This document shows, piece by piece, positions 26,522 to 49,176 of a DNA stretch of 64,000 nucleotides (position 1 is the stretch's first letter; the number at the start of each line of letters is the position of its first letter). This DNA is from Lignipirellula cremea (lineage in GTDB: Bacteria; Planctomycetota; Planctomycetia; Pirellulales; Pirellulaceae), in the NCBI RefSeq assembly GCF_007751035.1, contig NZ_CP036433.1:7669001-7733000 (forward strand), in the 5' to 3' direction. The notes under the pieces were generated by a model. That model saw only the letters and a list, made by a program, of their open reading frames with translations. It searched no databases and was not told the DNA's origin. A program made the position numbers and the translations under genes.

Positions 26522-29404
26522 CTATTTGACCGTCGCCTGCCTCATGTTGAAAAGCACGTTCGCCACCACGGTCCAGGCGGCCCATTCGCTGGCAGTCGAG
26601 GGAGCGTCGGCGGACGACTCGCCGACCGCAAGCAACGCTTGCGCCGCGGCCGGATCCTCCTGGTAACGGGACAGTTCAGCCGTGTAGAGCTGCAGCAGCA
26701 CGTCTGCTTCGGCGGAGGTCGGCGGTCGGGCCAGCAAGCGACGAAAGCCGCTCTCCAGAATTTCCGCCGGCGCCGGGGGCGGGCCTTGGTCATGCTTTTT
26801 TTCGGGCGACGCCTGCGCTGTTTCGCGCAGCATGCGGCCGGCGAGGCAGCGGGCCGCTTCGACATAGGTCGGATCGTTCAGCAGCACGAGGGCCGTTTGC
26901 ACCGTGTTGGGACGGGTTCTTGTCACGGTGCATGTTTCTCGGTTGGGGGCGCCAAACGCCGACATCGCCGGCGGCGGCATCGACCGCTTCCAGAAGGTGT
27001 ATATGCTTCGCCGGAACAGATCAGCCCCATCCCCCTGCTGATACACCTGGGCCGTGTAGTCGCGGGGGTTGAAGGAAACCTCGCGCCACAGACCGGGCGG
27101 CTGATAGGGGAACACGCTTCGCCCGCCAATTTCGCCGACGAGCAGACCGCTGGTGAATAACGCGCCGTCGCGGATCATTTCCACCGGCAAGCGATGACCG
27201 GGCCCGCGCGCCAGCAGACGATTTTGCGGATCGGCCGCATACGCGGCCGCCGGAGCCTGGGCCGTCTGACGATAGGCGGCCGACAACACCAGCGAGCGGA
27301 GCAGCCCTTTCACATCCCAGCCCGAGTCGACAAATTCCCTGGCCAGATGATCGAGCAGGGCAGGGTGGCTCGGTCGTTCGCCCCGACTGCCAAAGTCTTC
27401 CGCCGTCGCGACCAGCCCTTCGCCAAACATCATCCGCCAATAACGATTCACGGCGACCCGGGCCGTGAGCGGGTGCGCCGGATCGGTCAGCCACAACGCC
27501 AGCCCCAGCCGGTTCCGCGGCCAATCGCTGCGCCATGGCGGCAAACTGGCGGGCGTGCCGGGCGAAGCCTCATCGGTCGGAAACCGGTAGTTGCCGCCTT
27601 CCAGGACAAAGGTCTTCCGCGGTTCCGCCAGCTCTTGCATGACCATCACCGTCGGCGCTTCCCGTTCGATTTTCTCCAGTCCTCGCACCACCTCCGCCAG
27701 TCGACGGGCGTCCGCCGAGTAGACCGGATCGACCTGTTCCAGATAGTAACGCTGCAAGGCAGCCTGCTGGTCGGCAGTGCGTGCGTCTGACGGAATCGCC
27801 AGCAACTCGCCAATCGGATCGCCGCCAGCCAGGATCCCGGCCGCGGTCGCATCGAGCACGCGAGCATACAGCCGCACTTCATCAAGCAGCCCGCGGAAGC
27901 CGGCTTCTTCCCCCCGGCGTCCCACTTCCAGCACGCCATCGCCGGCGGTCGAACCGGCCAGCGCGTCAAGCTCCACTTTGCTCGGCTGGAGCTGCCCGTT
28001 GAGATACAACCGCCAGCCCGACGCCTTGCCGGAACCATCGTAGACGGCCGTTACATGGCTCCACTGGTTGATCGGCAAGGCGGCCGTGGTCGCTGTAGCC
28101 AGGCCGTTATCGGGCGACGTCCTCCAGAGTCCGGCGAACAGATGGCCTTCCCGCAAGCCGACTTCAAAACCACGACCCGTTTTCTCTTCGCGACGCGCCA
28201 CGATCGCCATGGCGTCGGTCGTCGTCGGATGCACCCAGGCCGCGATAGAAAAAGGCTTGTCGCTCGCCAGCGGCAGCTCCCCCAGGCCTATGCTCACGTC
28301 GCCGCCCAGCAGAAAGGCGTCGCCGAACTTTCCTTCCAGCAGATACGGTTCCCCTTGCACCTTCGCCGTACGGTCGGGCGCAGCACGGTCGGCCGTTTGG
28401 CCCTCGGCCAGGTTATCCAGCGGCAGATACGCCAGCATGTCGCCCGGCGGTTCCGCCTGGGCGGCGGCGCCAGCTTTTTCCCAGGCGGCCTGGTCCGCCC
28501 GGGCGGCCAGCGCACGGGCCTGCAGCAGGCGGGTGAGTTCGGCCCGACGCAGCTCCAGGGCGGCTTCTTTTTTCTGCTGCTCCCGCGTGGGAGCGGCCAG
28601 CACGGGCGGTGCGTTCCCATAGCGGCCGTCGACGCCATTCTCGGGCACGTTATTGAAGAAGGCGTACAGGTCGTAAAATTCCCGCTGCGTGAACGGGTCG
28701 TACTTGTGGTCGTGGCACTGGGCGCAAGCGATTGTTTGCCCCAACCAGACGGTCGCCACCTGGTTCACCCGATCGACGACGTACTCATTGCGGAACTCGT
28801 CCGCGATCACGCCGTCTTCAAAGTTGATCATGTGGTTCCGTAGAAAGCCGGTCGCGATCCTTTGCTCCCGCGTCGCCTGCGGCAGCAGATCTCCGGCCAG
28901 TTGCTGGATCGTGAACTGGTCGTACGGCAGGTTCCGGTTAAACGCTTCGATCACCCAGTCCCGCCACCGCCACATATCGCGATGGCTGTCCGTGTGGTAG
29001 CCGTGCGTATCGGCGTAGTGCGCCAGATCGAGCCAGTCGACCGCCATCCGTTCGCCAAAGCGAGGCGAAGCCAGCAGCCGATCCACCACCCGTTCTTCAG
29101 CGCCAGGGCGAGCATCGTCGAGGAACGCCTGGACCTCTTCCGGCGTCGGCGGCAGACCGGTCAGATCGTAAGTGACCCGGCGGATCCAAGCCGGACGCTC
29201 AGCGGCCGGCGACGGCTGCAGACCGGCGGCCTCAAGCTTCGCCAGCAGATACGCGTCAATCGCTGTACGCGGCCAGTCCTGCTGCTGGACGACCGGCAAA
29301 CGAGTCCGCCGCGGCGTCTGGTACGCCCAATGCGTCTCCTCCGCCAGCGACAAACGGCCGGCCAGGCAGACGAGCATCAGCAGCAGCAGACGGCGAAAAA
29401 TCAT
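26522..29404 (-). CDS. PSCyt2 (DUF1549) - LamG-like - PSD1 (DUF1553) secreted protein
   Basis: 960 aa from ATG 29404, with signal peptide FRRLLLLMLVCLAGRLSLA. PSCyt2 region at about residues 40-260, with RVTYDLTGLPPTPEEVQAFL, HYADTHGYH and the haem-type CxxCH in CAQCHDHKYDPF. A LamG/concanavalin-like domain follows (about 370-530; FSIAAWVHPTTTDA, WRLYLNGQLQPSK, LDEVRLYARVLDATAAG). The C-terminal PSD1 region (about 630-930) has RVAVNRYWRMMFGEGLVATAEDFG and TRPNTVQTALVLLND. This architecture is a planctomycete hallmark, usually next to a DUF1501 gene, but none adjoins it here. A role in polysaccharide breakdown is often proposed; the biochemical function is not established. Confidence 0.95.
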   Translation of the reverse strand: MIFRRLLLLMLVCLAGRLSLAEETHWAYQTPRRTRLPVVQQQDWPRTAIDAYLLAKLEAAGLQPSPAAERPAWIRRVTYDLTGLPPTPEEVQAFLDDARPGAEERVVDRLLASPRFGERMAVDWLDLAHYADTHGYHTDSHRDMWRWRDWVIEAFNRNLPYDQFTIQQLAGDLLPQATREQRIATGFLRNHMINFEDGVIADEFRNEYVVDRVNQVATVWLGQTIACAQCHDHKYDPFTQREFYDLYAFFNNVPENGVDGRYGNAPPVLAAPTREQQKKEAALELRRAELTRLLQARALAARADQAAWEKAGAAAQAEPPGDMLAYLPLDNLAEGQTADRAAPDRTAKVQGEPYLLEGKFGDAFLLGGDVSIGLGELPLASDKPFSIAAWVHPTTTDAMAIVARREEKTGRGFEVGLREGHLFAGLWRTSPDNGLATATTAALPINQWSHVTAVYDGSGKASGWRLYLNGQLQPSKVELDALAGSTAGDGVLEVGRRGEEAGFRGLLDEVRLYARVLDATAAGILAGGDPIGELLAIPSDARTADQQAALQRYYLEQVDPVYSADARRLAEVVRGLEKIEREAPTVMVMQELAEPRKTFVLEGGNYRFPTDEASPGTPASLPPWRSDWPRNRLGLALWLTDPAHPLTARVAVNRYWRMMFGEGLVATAEDFGSRGERPSHPALLDHLAREFVDSGWDVKGLLRSLVLSAAYRQTAQAPAAAYAADPQNRLLARGPGHRLPVEMIRDGALFTSGLLVGEIGGRSVFPYQPPGLWREVSFNPRDYTAQVYQQGDGADLFRRSIYTFWKRSMPPPAMSAFGAPNRETCTVTRTRPNTVQTALVLLNDPTYVEAARCLAGRMLRETAQASPEKKHDQGPPPAPAEILESGFRRLLARPPTSAEADVLLQLYTAELSRYQEDPAAAQALLAVGESSADAPSTASEWAAWTVVANVLFNMRQATVK

Positions 29405-29693
29405 GGTCAGGGAATCGTATTGGGGGGCAGGTTTCCGCAATCGAGCAGCGGCCGTTTCCTGTTAGTTTCTTGTTACCAGCGGTGCGTCAATCCACAGAAT
29501 CAGGGTTTTCCCAATCAGCCGCCGGGCGCTAGCCCACGATTCTTTGGGCGGCCCAGCATCACGGCCGACATCGCCCGCTCTAAAATTGAAGATTGACGTA
29601 TTACTAGTTTAGCTGCGGGAGAAGCATCCGGTCGGGCGGCAGTCGCGGCGAGGGCCGGATTCCGGCGCGGCGGGCGGTTGTTCGTTACGACCG

Positions 29694-30245
29694 TTACGAG
29701 CGGCCTTCATCGCGGAGCTTGTCGGCGAAAACTTCGCGTACTTTCTCGACTTTGGGCCGCACAACAAAGGTGCAGTAGGGATGCCCGTTGTTCTGCGCAA
29801 AGAAGTCCTGGTGGTAATCCTCGGCCGGATAAAAGACATCAGCCGCAGTGATTTCCGTCACCACATCGACGCCTGCGTCGCGGAGCTTCTGCTTGAACGT
29901 TTCCGCCAGCTGCCGCTGCTGGTCGCTGTGATAGAAGACGGCCGAGCGGTACTGCGTCCCCTTGTCGTTCCCCTGGCGGTTGAGCGTGGTGGGGTCGTGC
30001 GTCTTCCAGAAGACCTCAAGCAGCTCCTCAAACCGGATCTGTTCCGGGTCAAACGTGACCTGGGCGACCTCCGCATGACCGGTCTGGCCGGTGCAGATTT
30101 GCTCATAGGTAGGATTCTTCAGCGGGCCGCCCATATAGCCGGAGACGACGGATCGGACCCCTTTGAGTTCGTTGAAGACGGCCTCCACGCACCAGAAACA
30201 ACCGGCGCCAAAGGTCGCCACTTCCACCGAGGGATCCGCATCCAT
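29694..30245 (-). CDS. msrA: Peptide methionine-S-sulfoxide reductase MsrA
   Basis: 183 aa from ATG 30245. Catalytic motif GCFWC near the N-terminus (about residues 14-18), followed by VVSGYMGGPLKNPTYEQIC, TGHAEVAQVTFDP, FWKTHDPTTLNRQGNDKGTQ and YRSAVFYHS, all typical. Reduces methionine-S-sulfoxide in proteins, with thioredoxin as usual reductant (trxA lies 3.5 kb away). The catalytic residue is an ordinary Cys codon, not UGA, although a selenocysteine tRNA lies 170 bp upstream. Confidence 0.97.
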   Translation of the reverse strand: MDADPSVEVATFGAGCFWCVEAVFNELKGVRSVVSGYMGGPLKNPTYEQICTGQTGHAEVAQVTFDPEQIRFEELLEVFWKTHDPTTLNRQGNDKGTQYRSAVFYHSDQQRQLAETFKQKLRDAGVDVVTEITAADVFYPAEDYHQDFFAQNNGHPYCTFVVRPKVEKVREVFADKLRDEGRS

Positions 30246-30415
30246 GATATTCCGTCTTTCGTCCCGCAATCCAGAAAACCGGCGCACCCAGCGGCGCCAT
30301 CCTCTCTATTATTGCGAACCCCGCACGAAAGTCGAACGCCCGTTCTCCGACAAGCCGCAAAAAGAAGGCCCGGCACAGAGACCGGCAGACCCGTCGGACG
30401 GCCTGCATCAACAAG

Positions 30416-30512
30416 CGGAAGCGCATGGGAATCGAACCCACCGGACCCACGTTTGACGCACGTCCCAACGGTTTTGAAGACCGCGGCCGCCACCAGGCAA
30501 GCAAGCGCTTCC
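30416..30512 (-). tRNA. selC: tRNA-Sec (selenocysteine, anticodon TCA)
   Basis: 97 nt on the minus strand. Features of tRNA-Sec: 8-bp acceptor stem (GGAAGCGC with GCGCTTCC), anticodon stem around loop with TCA (anticodon at 30475-30477), a long variable arm (GTTGGGACGTGCG, loop, CGTGGGTCC), and T-arm ATGGG/CCCAT variant around GGTTCGATTCC. Discriminator is G; CCA is not encoded. It reads UGA as selenocysteine in mRNAs with a SECIS element. No selA, selB or selD gene lies in the window. Confidence 0.9.
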
Positions 30513-30601: not shown

Positions 30602-30832
30602 CTACTCGGCCCAGTTGAGGCCGGTGACGCCCTGCAGGCGGTGGACGTAGTCGCCGAGCAGGCCGCCGATCACGTCCCATTGATCGGGACGACGGATTTC
30701 GATGTCGCCCTGTTCGTTGATCCGCAGCAGCGTGTCGTCTTTTACGCCGGCCTTGGTCAGTGCGGCCATTTGCTCTTTGTCGTCATGCAACAGGACGCCT
30801 AAAGTTTTGCCGGTCAGTTCGATAAATTGCAT
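30602..30832 (-). CDS. Small conserved-looking protein of unknown function, 76 aa
   Basis: Start placed at ATG 30832 because GGAG lies 9 nt upstream; an ATG at 30856 would add eight residues. The protein (MQFIELTGKTLGVLLHDDKE, then LLRINEQGDIEIRRPDQWDV and a C-terminal GLNWAE) is soluble with a balanced, normal composition and no signal peptide, so it looks like a genuine small cytoplasmic protein. No family recognised. Confidence 0.7.
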   Translation of the reverse strand: MQFIELTGKTLGVLLHDDKEQMAALTKAGVKDDTLLRINEQGDIEIRRPDQWDVIGGLLGDYVHRLQGVTGLNWAE

Positions 30833-30930: not shown

Positions 30931-32415
30931 TTATTCCCATTTTTCGGCCGGGTTGATCGGCGTGCCTTCCCACAACCAGACGCTCCCTTTTTTCTCCAGC
31001 AGCCGGTGCCGGCTGCCGACCACGGCGGGGGTGTTCACCTGGGGCAGGAACTTTGCGTGCTGCGCAATGATGGGGGCGTACTTTTTCTCGCCGGCCAGGT
31101 TGGTCCACTCGTTGGGATCGGTGCGCAGGTCGTACAGCTCTTCCGATCCGTCCGCGTAACGGATGTACCGCCAGTGCTCGGAACGGACGCCGTGGTTGTT
31201 CTGGTTGTGCGTGGTGATCGCCGGCCAGGGCCGGGGCGTGGAGGCGTCTTTCAATTGCGGCGCCAGGCTGTGTCCCTCCAGACCCGGCTGGGGCGGCAGA
31301 CCGCACAGGTCGATCAGGGTGGGATAAATATCCAGCAGCTCGGCTGGCTGCGTGCAACGGGCGCCGGCCGTTACGCCGGGTCCCGCGAAAATCAGCGGCA
31401 CATGGGTGGAGCGTTCCCAAAGCGTGTTCTTGCCGGAGATGTCTTTCTCGCCCAGGTGATAGCCGTGATCGGACCAGAGAACGATGATCGTGTTATCGGC
31501 GGCGCCGCTTTTTTCCAGCGCGTCCAGCACCCGGCCGACCTGGGCGTCGACAAAGCTGATGCTGGCCAGATACGACCGCACCAGCGGCTTCCACTGATGC
31601 TCCTGCTGCAGCCACGACAGTCGCGGCTCCGGCAGATGCCAGTGCAGATACCAGGAGAACTCCGGCGTGTCGTCGCGATCGCCTGTCTGGTACGGGGGCA
31701 GCTGGGTTTCGCCTTCGGGATACAGGTCGAACCACTCCTGCGTGGCGAAGCAGGGGACATGCGGCAGGAAGAAACCGACTGCCATAAAGAACGGCTCTTG
31801 CGGTTTGGCTTCCAGCTGTTCGACCGCCCAGCTGGCGACCTTATAGTCGCCTTTGTCTTCGTCGCGATGGGGGAAGGTTCCCCAGTCCATCAGCGTGTGG
31901 TTCCCGCCGGGCGTGGGCGGAATGAGCTTCTTCGGCGGCGTGGCGCCGACGCTGGCGTTCGGCCCCCAGTGATCGGTCTCGGCGTCCCGGGCATCGCGGG
32001 GCGGATAACCGCCGTGCCAGATCTTCCCCGTGCTGAAGGTGTTGTAGCCGTTCGCTTTGAAATGCTGCGGGAGACTGACCCGATCCTGCAACGAATCGAC
32101 CGTGCGGAACCAGGGCGCCAGAGCATACACGCCGGTCGTGGAAGGACGCAGGCCGGTCAGCAGACTGGTCCGCGACGAGTTACACAGGGGAGCCTGGCAA
32201 TGGGCGTTGGCAAACAGCGTGCCTCGCGCCGCCAGTCGATCCAGATGCGGCGTTTTGACCTGCGGATGTCCCTTCAAGGGGCCCACCCAGTCGTTCAAAT
32301 CGTCGATCGCCAGAAACAGCACATTCGGGCGTTCCGGTTCGGCGGCAGACAACGAACCAGCCAGCAGCAGCAGGCCGCAAACCGGCGCCAGCCAGCGTAA
32401 AAGCACGAGCATCAT
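30931..32415 (-). CDS. Secreted sulfatase (iduronate-2-sulfatase-like)
   Basis: 494 aa from ATG 32415, with signal peptide ending LLLLAGSLSAA. Metal-binding NVLFLAIDDLND at the start of the mature part; the formylglycine-forming signature is CNSSRTSLLTG (Cys78, matching CxSxR), so it needs a formylglycine-generating enzyme. Later motifs: GKIWHGGYPPRD, FFLPHVPC, LWSDHGYHLGEKDISGKNTLWE. The overall pattern matches iduronate-2-sulfatase-like family S1 members used by planctomycetes on sulfated algal polysaccharides. The natural substrate cannot be deduced. Confidence 0.95.
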   Translation of the reverse strand: MMLVLLRWLAPVCGLLLLAGSLSAAEPERPNVLFLAIDDLNDWVGPLKGHPQVKTPHLDRLAARGTLFANAHCQAPLCNSSRTSLLTGLRPSTTGVYALAPWFRTVDSLQDRVSLPQHFKANGYNTFSTGKIWHGGYPPRDARDAETDHWGPNASVGATPPKKLIPPTPGGNHTLMDWGTFPHRDEDKGDYKVASWAVEQLEAKPQEPFFMAVGFFLPHVPCFATQEWFDLYPEGETQLPPYQTGDRDDTPEFSWYLHWHLPEPRLSWLQQEHQWKPLVRSYLASISFVDAQVGRVLDALEKSGAADNTIIVLWSDHGYHLGEKDISGKNTLWERSTHVPLIFAGPGVTAGARCTQPAELLDIYPTLIDLCGLPPQPGLEGHSLAPQLKDASTPRPWPAITTHNQNNHGVRSEHWRYIRYADGSEELYDLRTDPNEWTNLAGEKKYAPIIAQHAKFLPQVNTPAVVGSRHRLLEKKGSVWLWEGTPINPAEKWE

Positions 32416-32588
32416 GATCCCATCTTCCGCAAAAGGAGCGTAAACATTGGCCCCATGGTAACAAGCGACGACCGCGCCGGGCAATCATTCCCTGCGCGAG
32501 TGGGGAAGACGGCCGGTCTCCGCAGAAAGCACCCGCCCGACTTCCGGGAGACGTAATGCTTCCATCCTTGCAAAAGAATCGGGCGAAC

Positions 32589-39410: not shown

Positions 39411-39518
39411 GTTTGAGGGATGAAGTAGTAACGGCAGTGACAAATCACACGCCGCAAACGACTTGAAACGGCGATGATCGCCGCAACATCTACTCTCAAA
39501 CGTACGAAAGTGAATCCC
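39411..39518 (+). promoter_or_regulatory. A-type cassette leader (representative)
   Basis: Conserved 108-110 bp before each A-type start codon. It contains AGTAACGGCAGTGACAAA, CACGCCGCAAACGACTTGAAA and a small hairpin CGGCGA-TGA-TCGCCG, then the start context GAAAGTGAATCCC-ATG. The other A leaders are 40053-40160 (+), 50206-50315, 50835-50942, 56859-56966, 57485-57594 and 58113-58222 (all -). Conservation outside the coding region implies promoter and 5'-UTR elements; TTGAAA could be a -35 box, but no good -10 could be assigned. Confidence 0.6.
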
Positions 39519-39860
39519 ATGAACGCTTGCAAAAAGATCCTCCTGTCGGTCGCAATCCTCGGTCTCCTCGGCATGGTCAGCGAAGCGAAAGCCCAGTTCA
39601 GTAGCGGTTCCAGCTCGAGCTGGAGCAGCAGCTCGTCCAGCAGCTGGGGTTATGGTCCCGGCGGTTCTTACAACAACAACACCAGCAACTCCTCTTCGCA
39701 GCAGTCCCGCTGGGGCAGCGGACCGGGCGGCGGGTACTCGCAGAGCAGCGGCCGCAGCCAGTCGAACCAGTGGGGCTCGAGCTTCAACGGCAACGGCTAC
39801 AACCGCTACAACAACCAGCAGAACAGCGGCTTCAACAACTTCCGCCGCTACTACCCGTAA
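39519..39860 (+). CDS. Secreted Ser/Asn/Gly/aromatic-rich low-complexity protein, A-type (copy 1)
   Basis: 113 aa. Start at ATG 39519; a GTG three codons upstream and longer open frames are part of the conserved leader. Signal peptide (NACKKILLSVAILGLLG, cleavage after SEAKA) leaves 88 residues of low complexity: Ser runs (SSSSW), GYGPGGSYNNNTSN, RWGSGPGG, GRSQSNQWG, NGNGYNRYNNQQ and the C-terminus NNFRRYYP. In A-type copies about one third of the mature chain is Ser; Trp, Tyr and Phe total 14 and Arg 5, with no Asp, Glu, Lys, Cys, Val or Ile. It is predicted to be exported, disordered and basic only through Arg. Copy 1 has MVSEAKA, GGGYSQ and GSSFNG. No known family recognised; an extracellular matrix or adhesive role is conjecture. 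Confidence 0.85.
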   Translation: MNACKKILLSVAILGLLGMVSEAKAQFSSGSSSSWSSSSSSSWGYGPGGSYNNNTSNSSSQQSRWGSGPGGGYSQSSGRSQSNQWGSSFNGNGYNRYNNQQNSGFNNFRRYYP

Positions 39861-39889
39861 GACGAAAGAACGCAGACAAAAGAACGCTA

Positions 39890-39962
39890 CTTTCGCGGAG
39901 CGAAAGGCGACATTCAAGAAACAAAGCCGGCCCAGGCGTGAACCACGCAGGCCGGCTTTTTT
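39890..39962 (+). terminator. Hairpin plus intrinsic terminator of copy 1
   Basis: The CTTTCGC-GGA-GCGAAAG hairpin (39890-39906), then a strong terminator at 39923-39962: outer stem AAAGCCGGCC/GGCCGGCTTT, inner stem GCGTG/CACGC, followed by TTT. Confidence 0.85.
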
Positions 39963-40160
39963 CGTTGCGTCGTGGAGGAACGACGCGAGACGACTTGAGC
40001 CCATCTCCAAGAAAATCAGGAACTTCTGCGGCCGACTGTCCGCTCGGACGGCGTTTGAGGGATGAAGGTGTAACGGCAGTGACAAAGCACACGCCGCAAA
40101 CGACTTGAAACGGCGATGATCGCCGCAACATCTACTCTCAAACGTACGAAAGTGAATCCC

Positions 40161-40502
40161 ATGAACGCTTGCAAAAAGATCCTCCTGTCGGTCGCAATCC
40201 TCGGTCTCCTCGGCATGGCCAGCGAAGCGAAAGCCCAGTTCAGCAGCGGTTCCAGCTCGAGTTGGAGCAGCAGCTCGTCCAGCAGCTGGGGTTATGGTCC
40301 CGGCGGTTCTTACAACAACAACACCAGCAACTCCTCTTCGCAGCAGTCCCGCTGGGGCAGCGGACCGGGCGGCAGCTACTCGCAGAGCAGCGGCCGCAGC
40401 CAGTCGAACCAGTGGGGATCGAGCTTAAACGGCAACGGCTACAACCGCTACAACAACCAGCAGAACAGCGGCTTCAACAACTTCCGCCGCTACTACCCGT
40501 AA
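40161..40502 (+). CDS. Secreted low-complexity protein, A-type (copy 2)
   Basis: 113 aa, same architecture as copy 1; differs by MASEAKA in the signal peptide, GGSYSQ instead of GGGYSQ, and GSSLNG instead of GSSFNG. This exact protein is also encoded by the copies starting at 50205 and 56858. Middle gene of the cluster. Its downstream hairpin is interrupted by the MITE-like element at 40528. Confidence 0.85.
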   Translation: MNACKKILLSVAILGLLGMASEAKAQFSSGSSSSWSSSSSSSWGYGPGGSYNNNTSNSSSQQSRWGSGPGGSYSQSSGRSQSNQWGSSLNGNGYNRYNNQQNSGFNNFRRYYP

Positions 40503-40527
40503 GACAAAGAACGCTACTTTCGCGGAG

Positions 40528-40686
40528 AGGCTGTGAATTTATTCCGAAATTCAAGGGATGTTAACTTAGGATGCTTCAAAAACGAGCCATTTTCATCTCA
40601 GAGGCGAGGTTTGAGATCAAAACAGGGTCGTTTTTGAGAGCCATTTGCTAGAAGAACCCCTCCTCTGGTTAATAAATTCACAGCCT
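40528..40686. mobile_element. 159-bp MITE-like element with 16-bp terminal inverted repeats
   Basis: Ends are perfect inverted repeats AGGCTGTGAATTTATT / AATAAATTCACAGCCT. It is flanked by a 5-bp direct repeat CGGAG (40523-40527 and 40687-40691); uninterrupted cassettes have one CGGAG inside the hairpin TTTCG-CGGAG-CGAAAG, so this is a true target duplication. Inside are nested inverted segments (TCAAAAACGA with TCGTTTTTGA, ATCTCA with TGAGAT), so transcripts could fold into a long hairpin. Too short to code for a transposase. It is AT-rich against a GC-rich background. Second copy at 56333-56491. Confidence 0.9.
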
Positions 40687-40713
40687 CGGAGCGAAAGGCG
40701 ACATTCAAGAAAC

Positions 40714-40753
40714 AAAGCCGGCCCAGGCGTGAACCACGCAGGCCGGCTTTTTT
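40714..40753 (+). terminator. Intrinsic terminator of copy 2
   Basis: Same AAAGCCGGCC/GGCCGGCTTT hairpin with inner GCGTG/CACGC stem and T-tract as after copy 1, displaced downstream by the MITE-like insertion. Confidence 0.85.
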
Positions 40754-40843
40754 CGTTGCGTCGTGGAGGAACGACGCGAGACGACTTGAGCCCATCTCCT
40801 AGAAAATCAGGAACTTTCGCCCGCGGCTGTCCGCTCGGACGGC

Positions 40844-40953
40844 GTTTGAGGGATGGAGTAGTAACGGCAGTGACAAGTCACACGCCGCCAACAACTTGAA
40901 AAGGCGTTGAAAGCCGATCCTTCCTCTCCCCTCAATTTGTGAAAGTGAATCCC
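40844..40953 (+). promoter_or_regulatory. B-type cassette leader (representative)
   Basis: Shares the first 65 bp with A leaders (TTTGAGGGATGGAGTAGTAA, CTTGAAAAGGCG) but the second half diverges: GTTGAAAGCCGATCC and a C/T-rich stretch (TTCCTCTCCCCTCAATTTGT) replace the hairpin and ACATCTACTCTC of A leaders. The start context GAAAGTGAATCCC is common to both, except one base in copy 7. Other B leaders: 49572-49681 and 56066-56175 (-). Confidence 0.55.
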
Positions 40954-41295
40954 ATGAACGCTTGCAAAAAAATCCTCCTGTCGGTCGCCGTCCTTGGTCT
41001 TCTCGGTCTGGTCAGCGAAGCGAACGCCCAGGTCTTCAGCGGTTCCAGCTCCAGCTGGAGCAGCAGCTGGTCCAGCAACTGGGGTTCGGGTCCGAACGGT
41101 TCCTATAACAACAACACCAGCAACTTCTCCTCGCAGCAGTCCCGCTGGGGCGGCGGCCCGGGCGGCAGCTACATCCAGAACAGCGGCCGCAGCCAGTCGA
41201 ACCAGTGGGGCTCGAGCTTCAACGGCAACGGCTACAACCGCTACAACAACCAGCAGAACAGCGGCTTCAATAACTTCCGCCGCTACTACCCGTAA
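40954..41295 (+). CDS. Secreted low-complexity protein, B-type (copy 3)
   Basis: 113 aa. B-type differs from A-type across the first half: AVLGLLGLVSEANA in the signal peptide, then FSGSSSSWSSSWSSNWG, GSGPNGSYNNNTSNFSS, RWGGGPGGSY and QNSGRSQ; the C-terminal third is the same as A-type. This copy has AQVFSG and SYIQN, against AQGFSG and SYVQN in the other two B copies. Last gene in its cluster. Likewise no acidic residue or Lys in the mature chain. Confidence 0.85.
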   Translation: MNACKKILLSVAVLGLLGLVSEANAQVFSGSSSSWSSSWSSNWGSGPNGSYNNNTSNFSSQQSRWGGGPGGSYIQNSGRSQSNQWGSSFNGNGYNRYNNQQNSGFNNFRRYYP

Positions 41296-41309
41296 GACAA
41301 AGAACGCTA

Positions 41310-41425
41310 CTTTCGCGGAGCGAAAGGCGACCTACCAGGAGAAGATAACGCTACTTTCGCGGAGCGAAAGGCGACATACCAGCAGCAAAGCCGGCCAGGC
41401 GTGAACTACGCAGGCCGGCTTTTTT
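41310..41425 (+). terminator. Two hairpins plus intrinsic terminator of copy 3
   Basis: The CTTTCGC/GCGAAAG hairpin occurs twice (41310-41326, 41354-41370) after a 44-bp tandem duplication, then a terminator at 41387-41425 (AAAGCCGGCC ... GGCCGGCTTTTTT). Confidence 0.85.
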
Positions 41426-41473
41426 GTTGCGTCGGCGGCAAGCGGCTTCAGGCGGGCGCTCGCGGAACGTTTC

Positions 41474-43165
41474 TCAATCGCAGAGCGTTTTCCCGTAGTG
41501 CTGCAGCAGTCGGGACTGGGCGCCGGCGATCGCGGCTGTCTTTTCTGTGGGATCCAGGCGTCCGGCATCGATCAGGATGTCGGCCAGTTCGCCGAGCATG
41601 GTGGATGAAAGCAACGGCGAATAGAGCAGCATCAGTCTTCGCTCGATCAGGTCGCTCAGAGTAGTTGCCCATTCGCGATCCACCACCCGGCGGATGAAGC
41701 CGCGGGGGAAAGAACTGCCGGCAAGCGGCTCCTGATCGGCTGGCGAAAGGTCTTCCAGGTACGACCGGGTTTGCATACCGCACAGGTCCCAGACGGCGGC
41801 GATCGCGGCTGCCGGCAACCGCAGCTGGTCGACAAAGGTCGCCTGGGTGCGGGCCACAGCGTCGTTGTCGGACGGATATTGTTCTCCGCCAGGCAGCGGG
41901 CGTTCGCGCGTGTTGGCTTGCGGTTTCTCGCCCCAGCTTTTTAGCAGGTCGGCGACCACTTCTTCCGCCAGGGCGCGGCAGGTGGTGAGCTTGCCGCCGA
42001 TCACGGAAACGATCGGAACTTCGGCCGCGTGGTGCTGCAGCCAGTGTCCGCGGGGTATGGCGGCCGTTTTGCCGCCGGCAGCAGGAGACGGCGCGCGGGG
42101 CAAGGGCCGCACTCCGCTGTAATGCTGGGCCACATCGGAGCGTGTGAGCTGGACCTGCGGCAAGACGCGTTCGACGGCTGACAGCAGGTAGTCGATCTCC
42201 TGCTCGGTGGCGACCGCGCTACCTGGGTCGTCTTCGAACGGCAGATCGGTCGTGCCGATCAGCACGCCGCCGACAAACGGCAGCAGGAACACGGGACGAC
42301 CGTCGTCGGCCTCGGCGTAAATTCCCTGGTCGCCGAGGGCTTTTCGCAGCCCCGGATGAAAGCTCAACAGGTGCGTCCCTTTGGTCGGCCCCATTAACCG
42401 AGGGCTGTCAACCGCCAGCCTGGCCAGTGTGCTATCGACCCAGGCGCCGGTGGCGTTGATGATCACCTCGGGATCAAACTCCCGCACGTCCGCCCCGGAT
42501 GCGTCGTCGAGCGGGCGGACCTGCACGCTTTTTCCGTGGCGCTCGGCGGTGTGGTAAGGCAGCACCTCGAACGTGGTCTGCTGCTGCTGGCACAGGCGGC
42601 GGGCGTCTTCCAGCTGGGCGATCACGAAGCGCTCCGGGTAGCGGATCTGGGCGTCGCTGTACGCGCAAAGCCAGCGGTAACGCTCCTGCGAAACGGGCGC
42701 CGCTCCGGGCGTTCCGACTTTCTGCACCGATCTTTTCGGCAAGGTTGAACTGCGGGACAACTGGTCGTACAGCCACAAGCCGGCCTGGACCAGATGCACC
42801 CCGCGCGACGCGGCTGGGCCGCTTCCGCCCCATTTGAAGAACCGGCGCACCGACTGTCGCAAGCCGCCAAAGCGGTTCTCGACCGGAATCTGCAGACGCA
42901 GCGGATGCACCAGATGCGGCGCCAGCTTCAGCAGCCGGGAGCGTTCCTCCAACGACTCGCGGACCAGCGCCACGTCGCCATATTCCAGGTAACGCAAACC
43001 GCCGTGGATCAGGCGGGACGAATACGCCGTGGCGCCGCCGGCCAGATCACCCTGGTCGACCAGCGTGACCGACAACCCGTTCAGTGCGCACTCGCGGGCG
43101 ATGGCGGCGCCGTTGATGCCGCCGCCGAGGATGAGGACAGATCGCGAAGGTGCAGAAGAGGCCAT
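41474..43165 (-). CDS. glpD: Glycerol-3-phosphate dehydrogenase (FAD-dependent, GlpD)
   Basis: 563 aa from ATG 43165. FAD-binding VLILGGGINGAAIARECALN at the N-terminus; GGATAYSSRLIHGGLRYLEYGDVALVRESL is highly characteristic of GlpD. Later GPTKGTHLLSFHPGLR, GTTDLPFEDDPG, and VSVIGGKLTTCRALAEEVV. Oxidises sn-glycerol-3-phosphate to dihydroxyacetone phosphate, passing electrons to quinone at the membrane. No glpK or glpF gene adjoins it. Convergent with cassette cluster 1, whose terminator ends 49 bp from its stop. Confidence 0.95.
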   Translation of the reverse strand: MASSAPSRSVLILGGGINGAAIARECALNGLSVTLVDQGDLAGGATAYSSRLIHGGLRYLEYGDVALVRESLEERSRLLKLAPHLVHPLRLQIPVENRFGGLRQSVRRFFKWGGSGPAASRGVHLVQAGLWLYDQLSRSSTLPKRSVQKVGTPGAAPVSQERYRWLCAYSDAQIRYPERFVIAQLEDARRLCQQQQTTFEVLPYHTAERHGKSVQVRPLDDASGADVREFDPEVIINATGAWVDSTLARLAVDSPRLMGPTKGTHLLSFHPGLRKALGDQGIYAEADDGRPVFLLPFVGGVLIGTTDLPFEDDPGSAVATEQEIDYLLSAVERVLPQVQLTRSDVAQHYSGVRPLPRAPSPAAGGKTAAIPRGHWLQHHAAEVPIVSVIGGKLTTCRALAEEVVADLLKSWGEKPQANTRERPLPGGEQYPSDNDAVARTQATFVDQLRLPAAAIAAVWDLCGMQTRSYLEDLSPADQEPLAGSSFPRGFIRRVVDREWATTLSDLIERRLMLLYSPLLSSTMLGELADILIDAGRLDPTEKTAAIAGAQSRLLQHYGKTLCD

Positions 43166-43368
43166 ACCGACTCGCCGGGAAAGAACGTCACACACTGATT
43201 GACGCCATTATCGGCCAGTTCGCCCGGCAGGCAATGCGGGCGCCGGAACAGAAGCAGCCCCGGGAGGAGAACCCGGGGCAAGGGAATCGTCGACTTCTGA
43301 TCCGCAAAGAAGAGATGCTTTTCTCGGAGCGAGAACCGCCTTTGGGCGGCGGCTGTCTCGCGGTTTCT

Positions 43369-44031
43369 CTATCGTTCCTCCAGCGTGCGACGCAGGTACT
43401 CCACCTGGGCCCGGACGCCTTCCAGATCCGGGTTGAGATGCAACGCGCGGCGGAAATTGTCGAGCGCGGCGATGGCGTCGTTCATTTCCAGGTAGCAATG
43501 GGCCATGCCGATGGCGGCCGGAAAATGGTACGGATTGACCTCAAGCGTTTGATGGCAGTCGTTGGCCGAATCTTCGAACATGCCCAGGTGAAAGCGGGCG
43601 ACAGCACGTTGATTCCAGGCCTCGGCAATCCAGGGGGCTTCGTCGATCAGCAGATCGGAGCGGACGATCGCTTCTTCATACTGGCGGGAAGCGTTCAACC
43701 GCATGATGATGGAAAGCTCGGAACGCTGGGAATCGTCGCCCGATCGGCGCCAGACTTCGCGAATGCCGTTCTCTGCCAGCAGGCGAACACCGCGGTCGCT
43801 ATCATGCAGGGCGCGGCCCAGCACGGAATTGGATCCGTAGTCGCCCAGGAAACTCAGTGCAAGCACACCAGCGCGGCGGCTGATGCGACTGCCCATTTCC
43901 GACAGTCTTTCCAGGCTGGACGTCGTATAATGGCGGGATACCGACACAATGAACCGAGCGGAGGATTCATCATGCAGGTATTGGCGGTAGAAGCGGTGAA
44001 TCACCGGTTCGCGAATGTCTTCGATTTCCAC
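43369..44031 (-). CDS. TPR-repeat protein with N-terminal helical region
   Basis: 220 aa; GTG start at 44031 (no in-frame ATG nearby). Residues 1-100 are helical, possibly HEAT-like (LGDYGSNSVLGRALHDSDRG, VRLLAENGIREVW). The C-terminal half has tetratricopeptide repeats (AWNQRAVARFHLGMFEDSAN, then NPYHFPAAIGMAHCYLEMND, then NFRRALHLNPDLEGV). No signal peptide. A scaffold role is likely; partner unknown. A palindrome TTCTCG-GAG-CGAGAA in the gap downstream (43320-43334) resembles the cassette hairpin. Confidence 0.8.
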   Translation of the reverse strand: MEIEDIREPVIHRFYRQYLHDESSARFIVSVSRHYTTSSLERLSEMGSRISRRAGVLALSFLGDYGSNSVLGRALHDSDRGVRLLAENGIREVWRRSGDDSQRSELSIIMRLNASRQYEEAIVRSDLLIDEAPWIAEAWNQRAVARFHLGMFEDSANDCHQTLEVNPYHFPAAIGMAHCYLEMNDAIAALDNFRRALHLNPDLEGVRAQVEYLRRTLEER

Positions 44032-44287
44032 GGCGCGTGCTTTCGCCTCAGGGGCTGTTAGTCGGGCTGCGGGCGGGTCCAGATTACGATCGGCAGCGGC
44101 CGGGTCCTGGAGATCCGTGTCGAGCTGTCTCGGACACGGGAAGCAGGATCTCCCGGCTGCAAACCTTAGTCGAGTTTAGTTACGAGGCCGCAGGGCTACA
44201 ATGTCCGACGTTGCGGAAACGCAACGTTTTCTCCGGTATAAATCAGCTAGCAGGAACCAGGATGTGAAAGTGCAACGATCGGCGAAA

Positions 44288-45436
44288 ATGAACCATCCCC
44301 GCGGAGCCCTGCGGCAGCGTTCGCCCCAAAATTTTCGGGCAATTCTAGCGGTCGCTATGCTCGCGCTGCTAGCTCGCTCCGCGTCGGCCCAGTCCGCCTC
44401 GCCCGCCGAAGCGGCTGACTTTCCCGCCCGAATGCAGGCGGTGGTCGGCTTTGTCTGGGCCGAGAACCCGTTGCGTTCCGGCCTCTATCGGTTGTCGGCG
44501 ACGCAGGACGTGGCGATCTGGCTGGATCGACGGGTCGACCCGGATCAGCACGTGGACTTCGCCGTGCGCGATCTGCCGCTGGAAGAGGCCCTGCGGCGTC
44601 TGGCGGGCGAGCTGCAGCTGGGAGTTTGCCAGGTGGGGCCGGTCGTTTATCTGGGCCCGCCGGAAACGGCCGCTAAACTGGCGACCGTTTCGGCCCTGCG
44701 CGAACAGGAAGCGGCGGCGCTGCCGGCCGCCGCCCGCGCCAGCCTTGGTCGCCGCCGCAGCAGCACGTGGAAAGATTTAGCCACGCCGCAGGGACTGCTC
44801 CAGCAGTTGTCCCGCGATTCGAACGTGCGAATCGTCGGCCTGGAAACGCTGCCGCACGATCTGTGGCCAGGTAACCGCCTGCCCGGCTGCACATTTGTGG
44901 AGCGACTGACGCTGATCGCGGCCGGGTTTGATCTGACGTTTGAGTTCTCGCCCGACGGCAAGGCGGTGCGGTTTCAGCGGCTTCCGGAAACGGCCGTCCT
45001 GGAGCGGACGTACGATCTCAACGGACCCAGCGACCCCCGCGTCAAGGACCTGCAGCGGCGGTTTCCGGCAGCCCATCTGCGCGTCAGCGGCAGCAAACTG
45101 CTGGTGGCGGCCGGAGCGCAAGACCAGGACGCCATCGGTCGTCTGCTCCGCGGCGAAGCGGCCGAACGTCCCCCGGTCAAACCGGCAGCAGGCGGCATCA
45201 AGGTTTATTCGGTGAAGTTTGAAAACCAGCCCGCCGGGGTGGTCGCCAGCACGGTCGCCAAACAGCTGGGACTGACGCTGAAGGCCTCGCCCGAGGTGCG
45301 TGAACGGCTGCAGATGCTGGTATCCGTCGATGTGAAAGAGGTCAGCCTTGACGAACTTCTGAAAAAAGCCCTGGCGCCAACCGGCCTGTCCTACCGCCGG
45401 GACGCCGAGGTCCTGGAGATCCTGCCAGGAGAATAA
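44288..45436 (+). CDS. Secreted protein with STN/secretin-like repeat domains
   Basis: 382 aa from ATG 44288, which gives an N-region and signal peptide (FRAILAVAMLALLARSASA); ATG 44201 has a better AGGG site and is an alternative. Two blocks look like STN (secretin/TonB short N-terminal) modules: DVAIWLDRRVDPDQHVDFAV-x-DLPLEEALRRLAGEL near the N-terminus and VASTVAKQLGLTLKASPEVR with VSVDVKEVSLDELLKKALAP near the C-terminus. In planctomycetes such proteins are common and uncharacterised. Followed by a plus-strand row of genes for membrane, lipoprotein and pilin-like products. Confidence 0.8.
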   Translation: MNHPRGALRQRSPQNFRAILAVAMLALLARSASAQSASPAEAADFPARMQAVVGFVWAENPLRSGLYRLSATQDVAIWLDRRVDPDQHVDFAVRDLPLEEALRRLAGELQLGVCQVGPVVYLGPPETAAKLATVSALREQEAAALPAAARASLGRRRSSTWKDLATPQGLLQQLSRDSNVRIVGLETLPHDLWPGNRLPGCTFVERLTLIAAGFDLTFEFSPDGKAVRFQRLPETAVLERTYDLNGPSDPRVKDLQRRFPAAHLRVSGSKLLVAAGAQDQDAIGRLLRGEAAERPPVKPAAGGIKVYSVKFENQPAGVVASTVAKQLGLTLKASPEVRERLQMLVSVDVKEVSLDELLKKALAPTGLSYRRDAEVLEILPGE

Positions 45437-45589
45437 GCTCCCGCCGTCAGCTTCCCACTCCCAACCGCCAACAACGAAGAACAAAGATCAAACATCCGGA
45501 CCTCGCCGTGCGGGGCGACCTGCTCTAAAATAGAAATTCGCCTTGCAGGCCTGCAGGGTGATCGCTATTCTCGCGCTTGAGGCCCCTTC

Positions 45590-46066
45590 GTGGAAGAACT
45601 ATCGGACGAACCATCGGCCATAACGGGACCGGTTCCTCGCCCTTCGCTCGCATTACCCTGGTGGTTGCGGGCGATGTTGCTGGGTCCGGGTCTGGTGTTG
45701 ATCGGCTTGTTAATCACGGCTCGCACGCTGGAGCCTTCGCCTGATGGGTTTGGCACCCACCGAGGACTCGGTTTGCCGAGCTGCTCCATGATTGCATGGT
45801 TCGGCATTCGGTGTCCTTCGTGCGGGATGACGACCAGCTGGGCGTACGCCACGCGAGGGGATGTTTTGGCCTCGCTCAATGCAAACATCGGCGGCTTTTT
45901 GCTGGCGCTGGGAGCGGCCGGACTGGGACCTTATTTAACGATCTCCTCCCTGTCGGGGAAATGGTTTTTGGCTCCGCCGAACGAATTGTACTTCGCCCTG
46001 GCGGGCATCAGCATCATTTTGATCACGCTCATCGATTGGGTGACGCGTCATATGTATATCACGTAG
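45590..46066 (+). CDS. DUF2752 membrane protein
   Basis: 158 aa; GTG start at 45590 with GAGG upstream. The DUF2752 signature is CPSCGMTTSWAYATRGDVLA (about residues 75-94), with membrane helices before it (AMLLGPGLVLIGLLITA) and after it (GGFLLALGAAGLGPYL, LYFALAGISIILITLIDWV). Function unknown in the family; the conserved CPxCGxT motif suggests metal or disulfide chemistry at the membrane. Confidence 0.9.
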   Translation: MEELSDEPSAITGPVPRPSLALPWWLRAMLLGPGLVLIGLLITARTLEPSPDGFGTHRGLGLPSCSMIAWFGIRCPSCGMTTSWAYATRGDVLASLNANIGGFLLALGAAGLGPYLTISSLSGKWFLAPPNELYFALAGISIILITLIDWVTRHMYIT

Positions 46067-46119
46067 CGAGTCGCGGCTCCGCTATGCCGTTTGGTCCGCA
46101 CCTGGAGCAAGGAGGCCCC

Positions 46120-46779
46120 ATGCGATTCCCAAAGCGTTGGTCGATTTTGTGTTGGATGTTGCTGTTCAGCACGATGATTCTCGGCTCGAACACCGGTTGC
46201 GTGGGGCTTGCCGCCCATGCGATGTACTTTATGTACGGAAATACCGTACCGGCGGAATTCGATGGCCTTGAGGGCCGTCGGGTGGCCGTCCTGTGCGTGG
46301 CGGATTCTTCGCCAGCGGGCGCCGGCACTGCTTCGGACTTGCTGGCTCGGCGGGTGGAACTGCTGCTGGGCAAGTACGTGAAAGATATCGATGTGATTCC
46401 CCATTCGGAAGTCGCCAACTGGCGGGACCAGAACGGCGATCCGATCGACTATCGGGAAATCGGCAAAGGCGTGGAAGCCGAATCGCTGGTAGTGATCGAG
46501 CTGACTGCTTACAGCCTGCAGCCCAGCGGCACGCTTTACCAGGGCCGGGCGACCGTGAACCTGACCGTGTACGACATGAACAAAAAAGGGAACATCGTCT
46601 GGGAGGATCTCAACCGAGACTTCGCCTTCCCCATTCATGGCGGCGTGCACACCAGCGAACTTAGCCGTAACGCATTCCAGCAGCGGGTGCTGATGGCCTT
46701 GTCGCAAGACATTGTCAAGCATTTTTACGACTACGATTTTGAAGACGACTTCGGCAGCGACTACAGGTCGCTGCATTAA
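46120..46779 (+). CDS. Probable lipoprotein of unknown function
   Basis: 219 aa; ATG 46120 with GGAGG just 4 nt upstream. N-terminal signal (WSILCWMLLFSTMILGSNTGC) ends in an imperfect lipobox (NTGC). The mature part has VAVLCVADSSPAGAGTASDL, SLVVIELTAYSLQPSGTLYQ and ATVNLTVYDMNKKGNIVWED, typical of a GNA1162/LpoB-like periplasmic fold that binds or assembles envelope complexes; this fold match is tentative. The tail is Asp/Tyr-rich (YDYDFEDDFGSDY). Confidence 0.75.
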   Translation: MRFPKRWSILCWMLLFSTMILGSNTGCVGLAAHAMYFMYGNTVPAEFDGLEGRRVAVLCVADSSPAGAGTASDLLARRVELLLGKYVKDIDVIPHSEVANWRDQNGDPIDYREIGKGVEAESLVVIELTAYSLQPSGTLYQGRATVNLTVYDMNKKGNIVWEDLNRDFAFPIHGGVHTSELSRNAFQQRVLMALSQDIVKHFYDYDFEDDFGSDYRSLH

Positions 46780-46905
46780 TCGCCGCAGGATGGTACATTC
46801 TGCAGGAAGCGCGGGCCGCATCTGGTGACAGGCCTGCGCTCCCGCAGTGGCGCGCGTCGGCCTGACCGGCCTGCCGCGCCGTGTCTCCCAGGGAGAGTAC
46901 CAGCG

Positions 46906-47907
46906 ATGAATAACCGACGCATCGGCAGGGCGTTGCCGCGAGCTTTTACGCTTGTGGAATTGTTAGTCGTGATCGCCATTATCGGCGTGCTGGTGGCTCT
47001 GCTGCTACCGGCGGTCCAGGCCGCACGGGAATCGGCCCGGCGCGCCGACTGCAGTCACCATCTCACGCAGCTCGCGCTGGCGGTGCAAAACTACGAAGTG
47101 GCCTATCGCGTGTTCCCTTCCGGAACGCTCGCCGCTACGGGGCCCGTCTCCAATGCTCCCACCGGCTACCACCATAACTGGATCGTGCAAATTCTGCCCC
47201 AGCTGGAACAGCGGAATGCCTTTGCCCATGTCGATTTTAATGTGGGAGTCTACGCCAAGGCGAATCAGCCGGTTTACCAATTGCACATCCAACTGCTGAA
47301 GTGTGGTTCGGATACTGCACGAGGGAATATCACCAACTATGCGGGCGTGCATCACGACGTCGAAGCGCCGATTGATGTCAACAATCACGGGGTCTTCTTT
47401 CTCAACAGCGCCGTGCGGTATGACGATCTCCGCGATGGCTCCGCCCAGACGCTGATGCTGGGCGAAAAAGTCGGCGAAGCGAACAGCCTGGGCTGGATGT
47501 CGGGCACCCGGGAAACGCTCCGCAATACGGGCACGCCGATCAACCAGACCGGCATCGTGGGAGCCAATGGCCAGCGTTTCTCCCGGGGGGATGCAATCGT
47601 CGTGCCCCAGGCCGGCGACGAACAGCTGGAGCCGAATCCGCAGTTTTACTTCCCGCCGGAAAAAGATCCCGAAGACGAATTCGAAGATGAAGCGGAAGAA
47701 AATCCTTCCGATAAGGACCCACCCAAAGCGAAGAAGATTGCGGTCGGACCGCTGACTGTCGGCGGTTTCTCCAGTCGCCATTCGGGCGGCGCCAACTTCG
47801 CCCTGGGCGACGCCAGCGTGCGGTTTCTAAGCCAATCCATCAACAGCCAGGTCTACCAGCAGCTGGGCCATCGGGCCGACGGAAAGCTCCTCGACCAGGA
47901 CTACTAA
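46906..47907 (+). CDS. DUF1559 pilin-like secreted protein
   Basis: 333 aa; ATG 46906 with GGGAGAG upstream. Type IV pilin-like N-terminus AFTLVELLVVIAIIGVLVALLLPAV with prepilin cleavage before Phe and Glu at position +5. DUF1559 (PF07596) features: AARESARRADCSHHLTQLAL, NWIVQILPQLEQ, and the C-terminal SSRHSGGANFALGDASVRFL. An acidic insert (DPEDEFEDEAEENPSDKDP) lies before the C-terminal motif. The family is strongly expanded in planctomycetes; probably pseudopilin-like and exported, exact function unknown. Confidence 0.95.
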   Translation: MNNRRIGRALPRAFTLVELLVVIAIIGVLVALLLPAVQAARESARRADCSHHLTQLALAVQNYEVAYRVFPSGTLAATGPVSNAPTGYHHNWIVQILPQLEQRNAFAHVDFNVGVYAKANQPVYQLHIQLLKCGSDTARGNITNYAGVHHDVEAPIDVNNHGVFFLNSAVRYDDLRDGSAQTLMLGEKVGEANSLGWMSGTRETLRNTGTPINQTGIVGANGQRFSRGDAIVVPQAGDEQLEPNPQFYFPPEKDPEDEFEDEAEENPSDKDPPKAKKIAVGPLTVGGFSSRHSGGANFALGDASVRFLSQSINSQVYQQLGHRADGKLLDQDY

Positions 47908-47988
47908 CCGCAGTGCGTCGCCAACAGCCGCTGCGGCCGCAGGTTTCTTGCCGCCTTTTTCTTCCCTCTTTTTCTGGATCATCCGCCG

Positions 47989-49176
47989 TTGCCTGCTCGC
48001 GAAAAATCGTTCTGCGAATTCTTTGCAGGGATCGGACTGGTGCATGAAGCGTTGCGGAGCGGTGACTGGGATTGCGTCTACGCCAACGATATCGACCCCA
48101 AAAAAGCGGCCATGCATGCGGCCCACTTTGGCCCCACGCCGTACCACGTGGGCGACGTCTGGCAGGCCGATGCCGTGCTGGAGAAAATTCCCGGCCGGCC
48201 TTTCCTGGCAACCGCTTCCTTCCCTTGCACGGATATGTCGCTGGCGGGCCGGATGCAAGGTTTCCAGGGCGGCGAGTCCTCGGCTTTTTTCGGCTTCTGC
48301 AATGTGCTCGAAGCGCTGGGCGAACGCCAGCCAGAGATGGTGCTGCTGGAGAACGTGACCGGGTTTTTGACTTCCCGCGGCGGCGACGACTTCCGTACGG
48401 CCGCCTCCACCCTGGCCGGGCTGGGATACTTTCTCGACGCATGGGTGTTGACGGCCCAGGCGTTTACGCCCCAGAGTCGTCCGCGATCGTTCGTGTTGGG
48501 GGTGAAGGAAAGTGCTTTATCGCCTGCCTGGTTCCGGCGGAATACGGAGTCGCCCTTTGATCCCTGGCGGGAAGCCGTGCTGGCGACGCCGGGTTTGCGT
48601 TCGTCGCGCCTGCTCGCCCTGATGGAGAGCACCCCCTTGGCGACCGGCTGGGTGACCAGGCGCCTGACCGATCCGCCGCAGGTTGACTATGACCTGCTCG
48701 CCTGGCTGGATACCGACAACGATCAGCCCTGGTGGGACCAGTCCCAGGTGGACCGCCATTACGCCATGATGAGCGACGCCCACCGCGGCCGGGTCGAGGC
48801 CTGGCTGGAGCAGGGAGGCCGCCATGTGGCGACCGTTTTTCGGAGGATGCGCAAAGGCGAACAACGGGCCGAGGTGCGTTTCGACGGGGCGGCCGGCTGC
48901 CTGCGCACCCCGCGGGGCGGCAGCGCGCGGCAGATCGTGCTGGCGGCGATCGACGGCCGGCTTCGCATGCGCTGGATGACGCCGCGCGAGTGCGCCCGAC
49001 TGCAGGGGGCTCCCAACTTTGTGATCGACGTTCCCGACAGCCAAGCGCTGTTCGGGTTTGGCGACGCGGTTTGCGTGCCCGTCATCGAGTGGATCGACCA
49101 GCACCTTCTCACTCCGACCTTTCAGGAATGGCAGGCAGCGCACGAAAAAAGCCGGCCTGCGCGGGTGTCGCGTTAG
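47989..49176 (+). CDS. C5-cytosine DNA methyltransferase, apparently orphan
   Basis: 395 aa from TTG 47989 (no closer ATG). Motif I FCEFFAGIGLVHEAL, motif IV with catalytic Cys ASFPCTDMSLAGRM, motif VI LLENVTGFLTSRGGDDF, motif VIII QSRPRSFVLGV, motif IX RWMTPRECARLQGAP, motif X GFGDAVCVPVIEWI. Methylates cytosine at C5; target sequence not deducible. No restriction endonuclease gene adjoins it. The last eleven codons (HEKSRPARVSR) are read from DNA homologous to the terminator of cassette cluster 2. Confidence 0.92.
   Translation: MPAREKSFCEFFAGIGLVHEALRSGDWDCVYANDIDPKKAAMHAAHFGPTPYHVGDVWQADAVLEKIPGRPFLATASFPCTDMSLAGRMQGFQGGESSAFFGFCNVLEALGERQPEMVLLENVTGFLTSRGGDDFRTAASTLAGLGYFLDAWVLTAQAFTPQSRPRSFVLGVKESALSPAWFRRNTESPFDPWREAVLATPGLRSSRLLALMESTPLATGWVTRRLTDPPQVDYDLLAWLDTDNDQPWWDQSQVDRHYAMMSDAHRGRVEAWLEQGGRHVATVFRRMRKGEQRAEVRFDGAAGCLRTPRGGSARQIVLAAIDGRLRMRWMTPRECARLQGAPNFVIDVPDSQALFGFGDAVCVPVIEWIDQHLLTPTFQEWQAAHEKSRPARVSR

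Follow-up and report, generated by a model that had tools for sequence, protein, structure and literature searches.

A canonical tRNA-Sec gene in Lignipirellula cremea and fwdB, with its in-frame UGA, as the probable user of its product

Selenocysteine (Sec) decoding of the E. coli type in bacteria depends on the four genes selA, selB, selC and selD. Bacterial tRNA-Sec has been defined by its 8/5 fold, that is, a 13-bp AT stem (part of PMC5330540), and bacterial SECIS elements have been treated in PMC1088965. Among the planctomycetes, P1, P2, Gemmata obscuriglobus and Isosphaera pallida possess the full Sec machinery according to the relevant passages of PMC4807772, in which the sel genes of P1 are not co-localised and P2 has a Sec-type fmdB in a D-B-A-C operon in addition to a Cys-type copy. 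The same source and PMC13188914 describe, in the parts concerned, FwdB/FmdB as a selenoprotein of several archaea. Planctomycetes are also mentioned in a passage of PMC1794560, and a term search of the main text of PMC5029168 found no mention of Planctomycetes, Pirellula, FMDH or formylmethanofuran. Sec decoding and a selenoprotein fmdB in planctomycetes are thus already in print (PMC4807772, in its planctomycete passages), so the tRNA-Sec described here is a confirmed, ordinary case. Our addition is a named UGA gene, fwdB, with its SECIS element in this genome and nine relatives.

The DNA under study was a stretch of 64,000 nucleotides (the window), positions 7669001-7733000 of the Lignipirellula cremea genome, which was searched as one contig of 9,565,229 bases. 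The tRNA gene and its neighbours, in window coordinates, were as follows:

30417-30512, minus strand: tRNA-Sec gene (selC), anticodon UCA, 8/5 fold, from ARAGORN, Rfam, MFE fold and core pattern; discriminator G at 30416
29694-30287, minus strand: msrA, peptide-methionine (S)-S-oxide reductase, the next gene downstream of tRNA-Sec
30931-32484, minus strand: same-strand sulfatase-like gene lying upstream of tRNA-Sec, simply a neighbour

The initial annotation had proposed a minus-strand tRNA-Sec with an 8-bp acceptor stem, a long variable arm and the anticodon TCA, and ARAGORN, Rfam and the MFE fold all agreed with it. tRNA-SeC(tca) was called by ARAGORN at 30415-30512 (-), and the Rfam model RF01852 was aligned end to end (model positions 1-91 of 91) to 30417-30512 (-) at 71.0 bits (gathering score 47; E=1.6e-12); both structure scans therefore accepted the Sec model. 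The MFE fold was a cloverleaf with an 8-bp acceptor stem, a 5-bp anticodon stem and a 5-bp T-stem, a D-stem of 6 bp with one mismatch inside and a 4-nt loop, and a very long variable arm in two parts (4+5 bp). The acceptor and T-stems thus form the 13-bp AT stem of the bacterial 8/5 type. The fold energy was -43.9 kcal/mol (z=-2.31), with 3 of 200 shuffles equally stable, and the core pattern occurred once in the 64-kb window and in none of 100 shuffles. The length, 96 nt matched plus G73, and plus CCA if added, lies within the expected 90-101 nt. The discriminator G73 is the G at 30416, and the start at 30416 in the initial annotation was right in taking it in; CCA is absent from the encoded 3' end, where GCTT stands. 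The window locus 30417-30512 (-) is a canonical bacterial tRNA-Sec gene.

The tRNA-Sec model gave 20 matches in the whole genome, and the window gene was the best. Among the six best matches, which were named by ARAGORN, only the window gene was a tRNA-Sec; the other five were tRNA-Ser (four) and tRNA-Leu (one) with 49.6 bits or less, and the remaining 14 matches all scored 39.2 bits or less. The sole other tRNA found by ARAGORN in the window was tRNA-Gly(CCC) at 7914-7985. The adjacent msrA is a neighbour of tRNA-Sec and no part of the Sec machinery; the active site of its product, GCFWC, holds Cys rather than Sec, and MsrA was rejected as a selenoprotein. For the sulfatase-like gene, all eight NCBIfam matches were under the curated cut-offs. 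A small frame of about 76 aa with coding-like codon use (MQFIELTGKTLGVLLHDDKEQM..., about 30602-30832, minus strand) lies between this gene and tRNA-Sec. The protein encoded at 26522-29440 has PSCyt2 and PSD1 domains, which we take to be typical of the planctomycete phylum. From about 39421 to 58279 the window contains stretches nearly identical to one another and to other sites of the genome, and these were prominent in the read-through comparison described below. In the relative G031 (L044) an msrA of 62% identity adjoins tRNA-Sec too, on the opposite side. In some other genomes tRNA-Sec adjoins a sel gene, namely that of SelA (L042), SelD (L065, L066) or SelB (L055, L061, L064).

The remaining machinery was located elsewhere on the chromosome, and NCBIfam confirmed all three proteins with models matched nearly end to end (genome coordinates):

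4177465-4178559: SelA, 464.8 bits, cut-off 22.8, no internal stop
1085564-1087474: SelB, 356.1 bits, cut-off 242.25, no internal stop
7789689-7790621, plus strand: SelD, 245.5 bits, cut-off 125, no internal stop

The genome thus has SelA, SelB and SelD together, the set that marks the Sec-decoding trait. The initial annotation had seen none of the three genes in the window, which is correct since they lie at 4.18, 1.09 and 7.79 Mb and the window at 7.669-7.733 Mb; it had left open whether they occur in the full genome, and all three do so above cut-off, including selB and selD, on whose presence it had made the reading depend. The sel genes are unlinked, as in P1 (PMC4807772, passage on sel gene positions): along the linear map, selD is the closest to tRNA-Sec at 90 kb, followed by selA at 3.5 Mb and selB at 6.6 Mb. 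SelD is the C-terminal part of a frame of 743 aa (L002:310-2541), behind an oxidoreductase-like domain. The N-terminus of this frame matched the 'Nterm_to_SelD' oxidoreductase model with 370.6 bits (cut-off 310); the 'fusion_not_SelD' model spanned the whole frame but with 453.7 bits fell short of its cut-off (700), whereas the selD model exceeded its own. SelD has a Cys in LGCGGK, which we take to be the catalytic residue, and with Cys at this place and no internal stop it was rejected as a selenoprotein itself. A 2-selenouridine synthase had no match in the genome, which leaves Sec as the only one of SelD's two classic roles, a possible Se-cofactor use aside. G. obscuriglobus and I. pallida likewise have no such synthase, whereas P1 and P2 possess it (PMC4807772, in the parts on these species).

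A gene with an in-frame UGA was found 3.7 Mb from tRNA-Sec, in a fwdD-fwdB-fwdA-fwdC cluster:

Genome 4001495-4000161 (L105:161-1495), minus strand: fwdB, formylmethanofuran dehydrogenase subunit B, with in-frame UGA, from TIGR03129 and the paralogue comparison
485 nt upstream of fwdB, same strand: FwdD-like gene, 72.1 bits (cut-off 175, not reached); Pfam Molydop_binding match over its cut-off
Starting 110 nt downstream of fwdB, same strand: FwdA, 690.7 bits, cut-off 392.75
Overlapping the end of FwdA by 19 nt, same strand: FwdC, 251.2 bits, cut-off 130.65

When the UGA-read-through peptides of 2.44 Mb were compared all against all, the TGA at 4001150 (-) in fwdB was aligned to a Cys of its paralogue. 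Most matches of this comparison were wrong-frame matches of repeats, and fwdB was the sole convincing one among the matches listed. The read-through product is 444 residues long and carries U at position 116 (TSL-U-HGP); the active-site peptide is TSL-U-HGPTEIAAQLGGK. Residue 116 stands where the active site has its Cys or Sec, which binds the Mo/W centre as a ligand or lies next to it. The product matched TIGR03129 with 482 bits (cut-off 327.8) over profile positions 1-420 of 421, and a separate genome-wide search with the same model gave fwdB 477.7 bits with '1 TGA' inside. The earlier prediction that some UGA codons of this genome are read as Sec is thereby supported on sequence evidence, and fwdB would supply the selenoprotein of the Sec trait. 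A Cys-type paralogue is encoded in the same genome at 7545344-7546582. The enzyme subunit is the same as the archaeal FwdB/FmdB, and PDB chains of the family matched over nearly the whole length. One of them, 9sfi_Q (annotated as molybdopterin oxidoreductase), aligned over FwdB residues 3-420 and shows a non-standard residue (X) at the UGA position. The Sec-type subunit B in D-B-A-C order together with a Cys-type copy was also described for P2 (PMC4807772, passage on P2).

From the 19th nucleotide past the UGA, the fwdB mRNA can pair as GCCGCUC-AGUU-GGGCGGU, in which 7 bp enclose a loop of four nucleotides beginning 25 nt beyond the UGA; the energy was -12.1 kcal/mol for the 34-nt piece and -10.6 kcal/mol for the stem-loop alone. 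The bSECIS rules as set out in the relevant part of PMC13188914 are an apical loop of 3-9 nt on a stem of 4-16 bp, a G among the first two loop nucleotides, a distance of 16-37 nt from the UGA, and an MFE of -7.5 kcal/mol or lower, and the fwdB stem-loop agrees with all four. It lies inside the coding region just past the UGA, whereas archaeal SECIS elements are mostly in the 3'-UTR (PMC13188914, same part). Across genomes, 26 of 30 fwdB loci were folded (10 TGA, 16 TGY); the other four were dropped by a motif filter, and three of them read Cys at the site and one (G045) Ala. The stem GCYGCYC-AGUU-GGGYGGN was present in 10/10 UGA copies and 0/16 folded TGY copies, and 69 of 70 pair cells across the ten were standard, against 28.6-57.1% when slid. 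No stem pair was changed on both sides among the ten, and one shuffle control was uninformative, the observed values being reached in 500/500 shuffles. The Leu codon in the loop was TTG in 10/10 UGA copies; TTG makes up 10.7% of the Leu codons in the training frames of the genome. When codons were resampled synonymously, about 1.4-5% of the draws for each sequence gave AGUU together with no fewer stem pairs than observed. Pairing is favoured by the peptide AAQLGG as such, with all seven pairs in 13% of synonymous draws, and the MFE of the fwdB stretch was unexceptional (z=-1.33; 40% of synonymous resamples folded as well). An Rfam search of this stretch gave three matches, none at the family gathering score.

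The distribution was surveyed in 60 genomes (our own and 59 relatives). In 31 of them the tRNA-Sec model scored at least 62 bits (range 62-73); this threshold was chosen after viewing the list, and hits of 58.9 bits or less were assigned to other tRNAs on the pattern of our own genome. Among 30 tRNA-Sec loci, ARAGORN called tRNA-SeC(tca) in all but L046, which was left out of the tRNA-Sec alignment (29/30 loci). Ten of the 30 fwdB loci carried TGA; they belong to ten genomes (own included) of six families, all ten among the 31 with tRNA-Sec (hypergeometric P=5.9e-4, kinship ignored). In a tree of 31 rows (30 loci and our Cys paralogue, weaker fwdB matches left out), the ten UGA copies, including that of G007, whose TGA is shown by the folded sequences, formed one clade with 100/100 support and so are not independent. 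Nested in this clade was another (100/100), made up of five genomes from four families (f1, f2, f3, f9), with end branches of 0.025-0.094 and an unresolved inner order; this is compatible with horizontal spread and likewise with slow evolution. The other 21 of the 31 tRNA-Sec genomes are without a UGA fwdB; fwdB is therefore no general explanation of the Sec trait, and these genomes presumably use other selenoproteins. The 31-base core of tRNA-Sec was borne by 27 contigs, of which 19 were titled planctomycete (Planctomycetaceae, Planctomycetales, Planctomycetota, Pirellulales, Pirellulaceae, Bythopirellula). The remaining eight were titled Verrucomicrobiales, Rubritalea, KSB1, Calditrichaeota or 'bacterium' (L053, L054, L055, L059, L061, L064, L071, L074), which may reflect conservation, transfer or MAG mis-binning.

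Other users of UGA were sought genome-wide in seven families with stops read through (PF00384, TIGR04167, PF00578, TIGR03129, NF041383, PF00255 and SelD). Formate dehydrogenase was rejected, as PF00384 gave two matches, a Cys-type YdeP-like Mo protein and a NuoG-like protein, without internal stops. A Sec-UGA FdhA was not found in the genome by this search, which also failed to list fwdB; the lack of a UGA hit in such family searches is thus weak evidence of absence. There was no internal stop in any of 25 matches of the AhpC-TSA family, four of GPx, five of the ArsS radical-SAM selenoprotein (none over cut-off) and three of the VPGUxxT thioredoxin type 2 (none over cut-off). The protein encoded beside selB, which we assign to the YyaL/DUF255 family, was also discarded because its thioredoxin motif CHWC has Cys. 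A codon-usage scan for UGA read-through covered 1.24 Mb and then 1.20 Mb (2.44 of 9.57 Mb, 25%). In the first part (threshold 0.05), 10197 TGA stops were examined against 3812 TAA and 2947 TAG, and the passing sites were 19 TGA, 35 TAA and 32 TAG; in the second (threshold 0.0) they were 43, 33 and 33. Since TGA stops are far commoner from the outset, there is no TGA excess among passing sites, and by eye none of those in this quarter of the chromosome resembled a selenoprotein. The scan missed fwdB, whose downstream side loses to another frame. The initial annotation had seen no obvious UGA-interrupted enzyme within the window; there, four TGA sites passed the coding filter and none was selenoprotein-like by eye, but the evidence against selenoproteins in the window is weak, since fwdB escapes this filter as well. 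The genome may contain further selenoproteins, the scan having covered a quarter of the chromosome.

Taken together, the window gene almost certainly makes tRNA-Sec, and SelA, SelB, SelD and the SECIS-bearing UGA fwdB would complete a Sec-decoding system. With the machinery and one UGA enzyme gene elsewhere on the chromosome, this would be an ordinary, probably working system. Serine would first be loaded onto the tRNA, and SelA would then turn the product into Sec-tRNA with selenophosphate supplied by SelD, and SelB would bring the Sec-tRNA to UGA codons that precede a bacterial SECIS hairpin. At least one gene of this genome, fwdB, would use it, at UGA codon 116, and Sec in FwdB would have a catalytic role in C1 chemistry. 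Like the E. coli-type system, the present one has the same four parts, an 8/5 tRNA-Sec and an in-frame UGA with a downstream bSECIS; unlike it, the sel genes are unlinked, SelD has an N-terminal oxidoreductase-like domain, and no formate dehydrogenase selenoprotein was found in the PF00384 search. The fdhA selenoprotein of P1 likewise had no counterpart in that search (PMC4807772, passage on P1).

A decayed or unused relic of tRNA-Sec, or a serine-type tRNA misread as one, would fit the unlinked positions of selA, selB, selC and selD and the lack of an encoded CCA. Unlinked sel genes have already been reported for P1 (PMC4807772, same passage), however, and all arms of the tRNA are intact, its 71.0 bits lying within the 62-73 bits of 30 other genomes and above the 49.6 bits or less of the inspected tRNA-Ser and tRNA-Leu genes. 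As the genome also has SelA, SelB and SelD that cover almost the full length of their models, together with a UGA fwdB and its SECIS, a relic or a misread tRNA is extremely unlikely. It is also very unlikely that the tRNA works for other genes, the real users, and that the UGA of fwdB is a true stop or a pseudogene lesion. The Cys-type paralogue at 7545344 could do the job alone, and 21 of 31 tRNA-Sec genomes manage without a UGA fwdB, but the same TGA, codon and stem-loop are kept in ten genomes of six families, and both halves of fwdB are full length and conserved, which is unexpected for a lesion. A working tRNA-Sec with fwdB among its users is very likely and remains our reading.

In this lineage the Sec trait might be held by FwdB rather than by formate dehydrogenase, with a Sec-FwdB cluster that carries its own SECIS spreading horizontally between families and creating a dependence on selC, selA, selB and selD; we offer this as a speculation that is rather improbable at present. 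In this genome UGA very probably has a double meaning, and an annotation made without Sec would truncate fwdB at residue 115 or split the gene. Moreover, the ten bacterial Sec-FwdB genes with their shared in-frame SECIS would allow a test of how Sec enters this subunit outside the archaea.
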